From Flavobacteriales bacterium (GTDB lineage: Bacteria; Bacteroidota; Bacteroidia; Flavobacteriales_F; PHOS-HE28), in contig JADLBK010000050.1 in NCBI GenBank assembly GCA_020847755.1, positions 1-51,011 of the forward strand: 51,011 nucleotides of DNA, in the 5' to 3' direction. The translations under genes and the position numbers were made by a program. Of this stretch, positions 1 to 17,872 are shown in pieces. Each line of letters begins with the position of its first letter. Within the stretch, counting starts at the first letter, position 1. The notes under the pieces were generated by a model. It had not been told where the DNA came from and did not search any database. It was given only the letters and a program-made list of their open reading frames with translations.

Positions 1-482
1 GCGGTGAACGCGTGGATTGGCAGGCGGCCTATGTGGACGATGCGACCACGATCAGCAATCACAAGGCCGTCTCCCGCGATCAATTCCTACGCGCCATCGA
101 GACCAACCTCTTCCTGCTCCAACGTGATGGCGTGAAGGCCGTGCTCTGCCTTCAACCGATGCTCGTGCTCCGCGATACGGCGCTGCTGGCCGCCGAGGAG
201 CGCGCCTTCCTTCACGAGGACCCGAACGTGAAAGTGCTTCATCCCATCGTGCTGGACGAACTGAAGGAGGTGGCGCAACGCTGGCGCGTACCCCTGGTCG
301 ATCTCAATGTGACGTTCAACGACCCGGTCCATAAGGGAAGACAGCTCCTGATCGACTACTGCCACCTGAACGGATCCGGAGGGGAGGTCTGCGCTCAAGC
401 CCTCCTTCCCGTGGTCCAGGTGCTGCTTCGACCGACCGTGGCGGATAGCAGTGTTACAGCACCTGCAGGATCAGGCACTTGA
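1..482 (+). CDS. SGNH/GDSL-type hydrolase-like protein, C-terminal fragment (5' end outside window)
   Basis: ORF open from near the window edge; C-terminal LIDYCHLNGSGGEVCAQAL resembles the D-x-x-H block of SGNH hydrolases; resembles the complete SGNH-like ORF at 32503. Confidence 0.5.
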   Translation, partial: GERVDWQAAYVDDATTISNHKAVSRDQFLRAIETNLFLLQRDGVKAVLCLQPMLVLRDTALLAAEERAFLHEDPNVKVLHPIVLDELKEVAQRWRVPLVDLNVTFNDPVHKGRQLLIDYCHLNGSGGEVCAQALLPVVQVLLRPTVADSSVTAPAGSGT

Positions 483-1626
483 GGTAGAGGCTTTCCGGTA
501 TGCTCCAATGCACCGGATGGTCCGGGGGTTGCGTACCGTAGTGGACCTCCCGCAGGTGGCGACGCGCATCCTTGGCGGCATCCGCGACCATGGCCCGGAA
601 CAGGTCCGGGGTCATGTGCTGGCTGCAACTGCAGGTGACCAGGAACCCTCCGCGCGGAAGGCATTTCATGGCCCGCAGGTTGATCTCCTTGTAGCCCCGC
701 GTTGCGCCGGCGACCGTCGCACGGCTTTTCGCAAAGGCCGGTGGATCGAGCACGACCACATCCCACGTTCGGCCTGAACGACCGGCCTCGGCCAGGTGGT
801 CGAACACATTCGCCTCCCGGAACGAACAACGGTCGGTCAAGCCGTTCAACTCGGCATTGTCCACCGCCGCCCGGATGGCTGAGGGGCTGATGTCGAGGCC
901 CTCCACCCGCTTCGCGCCGTAGTGTGCGGCATGCAGGGCGAAGCCCCCCGTGTGGGTGAAGCAATCCAGCACATCCGCTCCTTCGACGACCGGAGCGATC
1001 GCGGCATGGTTGACGCGCTGATCGAGGAAGTGGCCCGTCTTCTGTCCCTCCGCCACATCCACGATCACCTTCAATCCGTTCTCCATGATCGGGAAGCGCG
1101 TCGTGAACGTGTCCCCGAGGAATCCCCTGATCGGTCGCAGACCTTCCTTTTCACGGATGGGCACGTCATTGCGCTCGTAGAACCGAGTCACACCGGTCAC
1201 CTCGCGGAGGGCCTCCACCAGGCTGTGCTTCCAGCGGTCCATGCCCAGGCTCAGCGTCTGTAGCACGATCGTGTCCTCGAACTTATCGGCCACACAGGCC
1301 GGCAGGCCATCCGATTCGCCGAAGATCACCCGGCAGGACGTGGTATCGACCATCCGCCGGCGAAAGGCCCATGCCTCCCTCACCTTCCGAAGGAAGAAGG
1401 CATCGTCGATCGGCTCGTCCAGGTCGGCGGTCAGGATGCGGACCTGGATCTTGCTGGCCGGGTTGAAATACCCCTGACCGATCGGGCGCCTGCGGTCATC
1501 GAAGACCTGCACCACATCGCCCGGCTTGGGATCGCCCTCCACGCGCACCACCTGGTTGTCGAAGATCCACGGATGGCCGTTGCGGACCCGGTCGCGTGGG
1601 TCGCGGATGATGGTACGATGGCGCAT
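454..1626 (-). CDS. rlmI: Class I SAM-dependent rRNA methyltransferase, RlmI-like (PUA + methyltransferase)
   Basis: 390 aa; N-terminal RDPRDRVRNGHPWIFDNQV (PUA), then VLDCFTHTGGFALHAA and VVLDPPAFAKS motifs typical of RlmI/YccW. Confidence 0.85.
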   Translation of the reverse strand: MRHRTIIRDPRDRVRNGHPWIFDNQVVRVEGDPKPGDVVQVFDDRRRPIGQGYFNPASKIQVRILTADLDEPIDDAFFLRKVREAWAFRRRMVDTTSCRVIFGESDGLPACVADKFEDTIVLQTLSLGMDRWKHSLVEALREVTGVTRFYERNDVPIREKEGLRPIRGFLGDTFTTRFPIMENGLKVIVDVAEGQKTGHFLDQRVNHAAIAPVVEGADVLDCFTHTGGFALHAAHYGAKRVEGLDISPSAIRAAVDNAELNGLTDRCSFREANVFDHLAEAGRSGRTWDVVVLDPPAFAKSRATVAGATRGYKEINLRAMKCLPRGGFLVTCSCSQHMTPDLFRAMVADAAKDARRHLREVHYGTQPPDHPVHWSIPESLYLKCLILQVL

Positions 1627-1666: not shown

Positions 1667-1697
1667 CGACATATGTATGGCCAACCATACGTTTCGT
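1667..1697. repeat. Palindrome copy 1 (diverged): ATGTATGG-CCAA-CCATACGT
   Basis: Inverted repeat arms at 1673-1680 and 1685-1692; related to the three copies downstream. Confidence 0.75.
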
Positions 1698-1826
1698 CGT
1701 TCAGCCATGACCGCGGTGCGGTGACGGCTTCGGGCCTTCCACGTCTTCCCTCTGATGTTCTGACTAGTCAGGTTGTTTCTCCCCGGTCGTCCAGGCCGCT
1801 CAGTTGTACCTGTCCGTAGCGGGAAG

Positions 1827-1844
1827 TATGTATGGCCATACATA
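1827..1844. repeat. Palindrome copy 2: TATGTATGGCCATACATA
   Basis: Perfect 18-bp palindrome centred on GGCC (1834-1837). Confidence 0.9.
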
Positions 1845-1967
1845 TGTTCAGCGTACTTCAGACCAAGGTGAGAACATCGGTTGTCGGAACAATTCGCTTC
1901 AGCATCAGTCCTTTAAATCACCTCGACCCGTCCTGCTTCGCCGATCTACTGCCCTGACCACTTGTCA

Positions 1968-1995
1968 AAACATATGTATGGCCATACATGTGTTT
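1968..1995. repeat. Palindrome copy 3: AAACATATGTATGGCCATACATGTGTTT
   Basis: 28-bp dyad with a single non-Watson-Crick (T/G) position. Confidence 0.9.
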
Positions 1996-2124
1996 CGGCC
2001 CTCTTCGAGTGCAAGGAGCCCTAACGCCCCGAGAGCGCGCAGCCTCCGATCTGCTGAGGCCCAGCTGATCACCACCGAAGCTCGTATCTGATCCGGATCC
2101 GCGAACGCCGTGTTCTCCCCCTCG

Positions 2125-2150
2125 AAAGCATGTATGGCCATACATGCTTT
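2125..2150. repeat. Palindrome copy 4: AAAGCATGTATGGCCATACATGCTTT
   Basis: Perfect 26-bp palindrome. Confidence 0.95.
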
Positions 2151-2231
2151 TGCCAGCGCATCCGACCCTCAGCCAGTTCCCCGCCAGCCCCGAACTTCGC
2201 CACCTCAACCGCCAACAACGCGGTGTGCATC

Positions 2232-3401
2232 ATGGACAGCTCGATGGACGTGGCGGTGATCGGGGCCGGGGCGATGGGCAGCGGCATCGCGCAGGTGGCT
2301 GCTCAGGCGGGTCATCCGGTGCTGATGATGGATGCGCGGCCAGGGGCGGCGCAACGCGCCGTGGACGCCGTACGGACCACGCTCGGCAAGCTGGCCGAGA
2401 AAGGACGGCTCACTTCCGCCGAGGCCGCTGAGGCCGGTGCGCGCCTGCGGGCCGTGGGCTCCGTGGACGATCTCACCGGTTCGCGCCTGGTCATCGAGGC
2501 CATCGTCGAGGATCTCCCGGTCAAGCGCGGGTTGTTCACCGAACTCGAGTCCGTGGTCGGCACCGACTGCGTAATGGCCACGAACACCAGCAGCCTCAGC
2601 GTGACGGCCATCGCTGGGGCGTGCGCCCATCCCGAACGGATCATCGGCCTGCACTTCTTCAACCCCGCTCCACTGATGCCCCTGGTGGAGGTGGTGCCCG
2701 GCCTGGCCACCGCTCCGGGGCTGGCCGAGCGATGCAGCATGTGGATGAAGCAGTGGAGCAAGGTCCCGGTGCTGTGCAAGGACACCCCAGGCTTCATCGT
2801 CAACAGGGTGGCTCGACCGTTCTACGGCGAGGCCCTGCGCATCTATGAGGAGGGCCTGGCCGACATGGCCACCATCGACCACGCCATGCGCACGGTCGGT
2901 GGCTTCCGCATGGGGCCTTTCGAGCTGATGGACCTCATCGGCAACGACGTCAACTTCGCCGTCACCCGCAGCGTGTTCGAGGCCTTCTTCTTTGATCCCC
3001 GCTACCGGCCGAGCCTCACCCAGCAGCGCCAGGTGGAGAGCGGTCGGCTGGGGAGGAAGTCCGGTCGCGGGTACTACGACCACAGTAACGGATCGCTGCC
3101 TCCCACACCCAAGAACGACCCGGAACTGCTGGACATGATCTACCGCAGGATCCTCGTGATGCTCATCAACGAGGCTGCGGATGCCCTCTACCTGGGCATC
3201 GCCGACCGGGATGCCTTGGAACTGGCCATGACCAAGGGGGTCAATTACCCGAAGGGCCTGCTGAGGTGGGCGGATGAATTCGGTCTTGAACGATGCCTGT
3301 CCGCATTGCAGGACCTGCAGGCCGAATATGGAGAGGACCGCTATCGACCTTCACCCCTGCTGCGCAGGATGGTCCGCGAGGGAAGGCTGTTCCACGGGTG
3401 A
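2232..3401 (+). CDS. 3-hydroxyacyl-CoA / 3-hydroxybutyryl-CoA dehydrogenase
   Basis: MDSSMDVAVIGAGAMGSGIAQVAAQAGH Rossmann motif; IGLHFFNPAPLMPLVEVV and KDTPGFIVNR motifs. The track start at 2130 lies inside palindrome copy 4, so the start is set at ATG 2232. Confidence 0.85.
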   Translation: MDSSMDVAVIGAGAMGSGIAQVAAQAGHPVLMMDARPGAAQRAVDAVRTTLGKLAEKGRLTSAEAAEAGARLRAVGSVDDLTGSRLVIEAIVEDLPVKRGLFTELESVVGTDCVMATNTSSLSVTAIAGACAHPERIIGLHFFNPAPLMPLVEVVPGLATAPGLAERCSMWMKQWSKVPVLCKDTPGFIVNRVARPFYGEALRIYEEGLADMATIDHAMRTVGGFRMGPFELMDLIGNDVNFAVTRSVFEAFFFDPRYRPSLTQQRQVESGRLGRKSGRGYYDHSNGSLPPTPKNDPELLDMIYRRILVMLINEAADALYLGIADRDALELAMTKGVNYPKGLLRWADEFGLERCLSALQDLQAEYGEDRYRPSPLLRRMVREGRLFHG

Positions 3402-17782: not shown

Positions 17783-17872
17783 GGAGAGGTGGCAGAGCGG
17801 TCGAATGCGGCGGTCTTGAAAACCGCTTTACCCGCAAGGGTAACGGGGGTTCGAATCCCTCCCTCTCCGCCA
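17783..17872 (+). tRNA. tRNA-Ser (anticodon UGA)
   Basis: GGAGAGG acceptor pairs with CCTCTCC, discriminator G, encoded CCA; anticodon loop CTTGAAA with TGA at 17817-17819; long variable arm; T-arm GGTTCGAATCC. Confidence 0.97.

Follow-up and report, generated by a model that had tools for sequence, protein, structure and literature searches.

Why should the intergenic region between two divergently transcribed genes, an rlmI-like and an hbd-like gene, contain a regularly spaced series of palindromes? The window, by which we mean the whole stretch of 51,011 nucleotides from a Flavobacteriales bacterium that was analyzed, carries four in-register copies of ATGTATGGCCATACAT between these genes, at positions 1673-1688 (two mismatches) and, as exact copies, at 1828-1843, 1974-1989 and 2130-2145 (Table 1). 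By chance, 0.02 copies would be expected, and none of the shuffled sequences contained four, so that the palindromes described in the initial annotation are real. It was also right that there is no further copy, a fifth being absent across the whole window. The first copy had been given a CCAA centre at about 1682.5, but when read in register as ATGTATGG|CCAACCAT its centre is unaltered at 1680.5 and two substitutions (TA to AC) fall in the right half-site; the start-to-start spacings thereby become 155, 146 and 156 bp, instead of 153, 146 and 156 bp. The ortholog of this copy is intact in two related genomes, G033 and G008. Rfam returned a single match in the window, a tRNA gene at 17783-17869.

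Table 1. Features of the palindrome array and its flanking genes, in positions of the window.
Feature	Position	Strand	Basis or remark
rlmI-like 23S rRNA methyltransferase gene, left flank	454..1626	-	ORF; same-place orthologs in G033, G008, G024 and G026; name from the initial annotation
Whole array, inserted or expanded block between divergent genes	1668..2150		Comparison with array-free relatives
Palindrome copy 1 with outer arms, GACAT-ATGTATGGCCAACCAT-ACGTT	1668..1693		Two substitutions in right half-site
Spacer 1	1694..1822		No relation to the array's other spacers; weak similarity to spacers of the G033 array
Palindrome copy 2, GAAGT-ATGTATGGCCATACAT-ATGTT	1823..1848		Motif search
Spacer 2	1849..1968		Spacer comparison within the array and with G033
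Palindrome copy 3, AACAT-ATGTATGGCCATACAT-GTGTT	1969..1994		Motif search
Spacer 3	1995..2124		Spacer comparison within the array and with G033
Palindrome copy 4, AAAGC-ATGTATGGCCATACAT-GCTTT	2125..2150		Motif search
hbd-like 3-hydroxyacyl-CoA dehydrogenase gene, right flank	2232..3401	+	ORF; orthologs in 45/45 congeners; name from the initial annotation

A comparison of the orthologous gap in relatives, which had been proposed in the initial annotation, was informative about the origin of the array. From start to start, the gap measures 605 bp in the window, 742 bp in G033 (five palindromes) and 744 bp in G008 (four palindromes), as against 113 bp in G024 and 91 bp in G026, two relatives that lack both the array and the MarR gene discussed below. 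Both ends of the gap are recognizably homologous between the array carriers and G024/G026, and the array must therefore be an inserted or expanded block. No target-site duplication is visible at the empty site, which is itself diverged. The rlmI-like gene has no known relation to what the array does.

A genome-wide motif search, likewise proposed in the initial annotation, identified 38 sites with at most three mismatches to TATGTATGGCCATACATA in the genome of the window (a 3.67-Mb draft, 83% complete) and none with the reversed control. All of them are intergenic; they are spread over 14 contigs, in clusters of two to six that are spaced 113-218 bp apart. The single site at the end of contig C74 and the start of C181 match one locus in G008/G033, which gives about 13 loci. 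The genes next to these arrays are unrelated to each other and include those for IF-2, thiolase, an FKBP isomerase, aroE, an Rrf2 regulator, an epimerase and YjeF/NAD(P)H-hydrate dehydratase, in divergent, tandem or convergent orientation. It is therefore highly improbable that the palindromes are operators of rlmI and/or hbd only, in a local circuit. Such a circuit would agree with the placement of the array between divergent genes and near both starts, but with 38 sites in the genome it is refuted as a complete explanation, the same motif forms about 13 arrays at unrelated genes, and relatives keep rlmI and hbd yet lack the array. Nor are these CRISPR arrays, as had been stated from the outset. 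Their spacers are about 85-190 bp long and mostly unrelated within an array, with some tandem duplicates (at contig C175, pairs at 93% and a chimera), and they occupy about 13 housekeeping-gene loci, whereas CRISPR repeats are short, lie beside cas genes and are separated by unique spacers of about 25-40 bp.

A search of 98 genomes showed the exact 16-mer to be confined to this genus, with 30 copies in G000 (the genome of the window), 33 in G033, 31 in G008, 14 in G027, 8 in G037, two each in G006 and G009, one each in G023 and G026, and none in the rest. The multi-copy carriers are Flavobacteriales/Bacteroidetes MAGs. Orthologous array loci are common to G000, G033 and G008, where the number of copies differs by whole units. 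Stray 18-mer matches in Paenibacillus, Mycobacterium, WOR-3, Lokiarchaeota and others were taken as chance; those in WOR-3 lie inside paralogous coding genes, and the rest are single copies.

The only array locus common to all close bearers is located at a gene for a 145-amino-acid MarR-family protein (G000:C125:4053-4487, minus strand), on a contig other than that of the window, and we consider this protein the probable binder. It matches the Pfam MarR family (7.6e-12), its AlphaFold model has a pLDDT of 87 and PDB matches to MarR, SlyA and MexR, the best-scoring of which (TM-score 0.81) include a SlyA-DNA complex, and profile searches match MarR structures; we are confident that the predicted fold is the MarR winged helix. 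Homologs at E<1e-20 were found in 15 of the 45 congeners, and palindrome arrays in 14 of these 15 versus one of the 30 without the homolog (Fisher P about 1e-9, kinship ignored). The one carrier that lacks the MarR gene, G026, has two sites, probably relics, at a single locus where three relatives carry sites as well. In G035 the homolog is present and arrays are absent; weaker dyad-like sequences lie near its MarR genes. Searches of phage and plasmid collections gave only distant homologs of the MarR protein. A second, related group of MarR genes, located at L186 (G018:C133), L187 (G035:C304), L188 (G035:C399) and L189 (G027:C105), is array-free, and some of its members have weaker dyad-like sequences of their own nearby, such as TTTGCGTGGCTGGCCAAGCAAA upstream in L189 and CGTGCGTGTACATGCACG downstream in L186.

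In 11 genomes a palindrome core lies upstream of the MarR gene and stops 11-19 bp short of its start codon, which is the position of a putative autoregulatory operator; in G002 and G023 the palindrome is found only downstream of the gene. Furthermore, the spelling of the motif follows the protein. The G020 homolog (57%) is accompanied by a ATGCATGGCCATGCAT palindrome, and differently spelled arrays were predicted near the genes of six distant homologs (41-52% identity), where they were indeed found: ATTCATGGCCATGAAT in G018, TTGCATGGCCATGCAA in G013, G004, G023 and G002, and TTGCTTGTACAAGCAA in G041, each dispersed in its own genome. Residues 70-72 of the recognition helix vary with the motif; in the MarR alignment, T70-K71-T72 goes with CCATACAT, T70-K71-A72 with CCATGCAT and CCATGAAT, and S70-R71 with CCATGCAA. 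Since the homologs of sister species have matching, differently spelled palindromes, it appears that the protein and the sites scattered through the genome have co-evolved. The idea of the initial annotation that the palindromes are operators of a dimeric regulator has thus gained from the co-occurrence, the site at the protein's start codon and the co-variation of motif and helix. The specific control of rlmI or hbd with which that idea was coupled has not, because the arrays adjoin unrelated housekeeping genes in every orientation, convergent ends included.

We also considered the possibility that the palindromes form hairpins in RNA or single-stranded DNA, with the pairing itself under selection. 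The dyads are perfect, the change to ATGCATGGCCATGCAT in G020 is two-sided, and the initial annotation had suggested that both arms change in a matched way so as to maintain the symmetry. This does not hold in general. Among 37 sites of the genome of the window, the arms match no more than shuffled arms at the variable positions 10 (16 versus 18.2 expected) and 13 (13 versus 17.1), and weakly above them at positions 9 and 11 (P about 0.03 and 0.07). Pooling the species gives a slight excess of matching at positions 9-11, which speaks for pairing. However, core changes on one side only (ATGCATGGCCATACAT) are common, Rfam has no match at the array, and the change in G020 coincides with a change in the MarR helix. 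Selection for pairing is thus very improbable. The symmetry is mainly that of a putative consensus half-site, GRACRT-ATGTATGG/CCATACAT-AYGTYC, which over 142 sites reads CCATACAT-A-Y-[GTA]-T-Y, and the largely independent variation of the arms in this genome is as expected of two protomers and not of a hairpin.

A survey of 395 genomes of the class provides a view of the state outside the genus. Fourteen genomes outside it have a homolog at 102-133 bits, with other MarR proteins at 54 or less, and in 13 of the 14 a dyad of the TTTGTATATACAAA type flanks the gene on its upstream side, its downstream side or both; these genomes contain one to five copies of the dyad. The downstream neighbours in eight of the nine cases tested are SDR, NmrA/NAD-binding or OYE oxidoreductases, and an SDR neighbour is also found at the MarR gene of G041, inside the genus. 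Because the dyads outside the genus are few and placed at the MarR gene, the ancestral state was likely a local operator, and the arrays are peculiar to this genus. In this respect the system resembles the MarR repressors of the SlyA, MexR and HucR type with an autoregulatory palindromic operator (PMC5487221), with which it shares the winged-helix fold, the palindrome at its own gene and, in the genomes outside the genus, the presence of one or two local operators next to a gene that is probably the target. It differs from them in that the operator, whose spelling varies among congeners, is present in up to about 38 near-invariant copies. These form arrays of regular spacing, which have been inserted as blocks into unrelated intergenic regions.

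How the arrays may have spread is indicated by several loci. In G013, a homologous segment of 171 bp (71% identity) that ends exactly at palindromes links the MarR locus with another locus. The same spacer occurs in both orientations within one array in G018, and the MarR array of G004 consists of seven steps of 99-100 bp with spacers that are mostly 86-97% similar. The MarR gene itself is found at several loci, with folP, DUF3078, transketolase, glycosyltransferase/SDR, MFS or OmpA/peptidase neighbours, and arrays of different motifs occupy corresponding positions downstream of aroE (G000, G018) and of gcvP (G004, G020). Two unlinked arrays, L016 and L022 (G000:C17 and C100; with L043 and L067), have in common a homologous stretch, several hundred bp long, that on one side extends about 240 bp past the palindrome, so that not every dispersed copy is palindrome-bounded. 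The 500-bp flanks of L022 each contain a copy of a 96-bp segment, the two copies being 95% identical.

The spacers have drifted, whereas their lengths have mostly been kept. Spacer interiors are mostly unrelated between loci, and in orthologous arrays the core is 98.4% identical, the outer arms 70% and the spacers 67%, with a random level of 63% in the scheme used. The palindrome spacing nevertheless differs by 0-2 bp between most orthologous pairs, and several pairs have spacers with an identity of only 45-53% yet no more than one small indel. In L028/L058, indels offset each other and leave the 131-bp spacing unchanged. Spacers at about the random level, with the spacing kept in most pairs, were also observed in L018/L062, L017/L031, L021/L040, L023/L042 and others. 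The pattern suggests that the spacing is under selection, with the comparable gaps in the window too few to give a neutral background. Helical phasing of the palindrome spacing was tested and none was found, and spacer inversion was tested and ruled out as the cause of the unalignable orthologous spacers.

The evidence for spread brings selfish elements into consideration, namely REP/REPIN-like repeats moved by a Y1 transposase (RAYT/TnpA-REP or IS200-like), for which MarR binding would be incidental or only regulatory. The palindrome-bounded dispersed unit in G013, the tandem and inverted copies, the insertion at rlmI/hbd and the intergenic placement in any orientation all agree with such an origin, as does the presence of Y1_Tnp in 15 of 15 genomes with the MarR gene versus 18 of 30 others (P=0.004). 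However, Y1_Tnp is common in array-free congeners and is therefore not specific to the arrays, and G037 has arrays yet a single IS200-like match; the transposase was accordingly rejected as the obvious partner. The motif follows the MarR helix, the arms show no hairpin-stem covariation in the genome of the window, and the one-sided GTAG or CGTC tag, left unpaired, by which REP/REPINs are recognized (PMC3733652) is absent, both ends having the same symmetric GRAC/GTYC-like arm. We therefore regard this explanation as unlikely, although more credible than hairpins or a local circuit.

With REP/REPINs (PMC3116915, PMC3733652) the palindromes share a dispersed, extragenic placement and a conserved 16-mer. 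Both occur as doublets and in tandem arrays, have spacers whose length is kept although their sequence is weakly conserved, fall into lineage-specific families and flank a dedicated gene. Here, the copies number tens rather than hundreds and the dedicated gene encodes a MarR protein, not a RAYT transposase. MITEs have terminal inverted repeats, a target-site duplication and related interiors; here palindromes bound the G013 unit and interiors are mostly unrelated. ParB/parS-type chromosomal sites are, like the sites described here, near-invariant 16-bp palindromes that are multi-copy and dispersed over the chromosome, but the arrays differ from them in sequence, in the protein (MarR instead of ParB), in their insertion as blocks and in a motif that differs between congeners. 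The other proposal of the initial annotation, a family of mobile or structural palindromes, is supported in some of its elements, with about 38 dispersed copies.

Taken together, we consider it probable that the palindromes are operators of the MarR-family protein encoded elsewhere in the genome, which have proliferated into dispersed arrays. The binding of the protein to the palindromes, its effect on transcription and the mechanism of spread are what we infer from these comparisons. Each half-site CCATACAT-AYGTY would be read by one protomer of the MarR dimer. In the ancestral arrangement, which persists in other families of the Bacteroidia, the MarR gene would have one or two operators next to it and, usually, an oxidoreductase neighbour. 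In this genus the operators may have been dispersed over intergenic regions, in part at least as units of palindrome, spacer and palindrome, and arrays may have grown by tandem duplication, the rlmI/hbd array being one such inserted block. MarR binding would keep the core fixed while the spacers drift, and changes in the recognition helix would accompany changes in the motif. A bound array close upstream of rlmI and hbd could repress or insulate their promoters, but many arrays are located between convergent genes, where promoter control is impossible.

A bolder interpretation, which we put forward tentatively and with distinctly less conviction, is that the arrays represent a new class of dispersed palindrome-bounded repeats whose sole dedicated protein is of the MarR family. 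A local operator would have turned into a spreading element, the MarR gene would be a palindrome-bracketed cassette at several loci of sister species, and the spacing, not the sequence of the spacers, would be selected. A search of the literature for MarR operator arrays found no description of them. The system looks like a natural experiment in which a local regulator with one or two sites has given rise to dozens of near-invariant arrayed sites within one genus. The apparent proliferation of operators within a single genus makes it testable whether operators can spread like REPINs. Likewise, the lineage-specific palindromes, matched to the recognition helix, make it testable how a transcription factor changes its specificity in step with dozens of its sites, and they may offer natural protein/DNA pairs for the study of MarR recognition.
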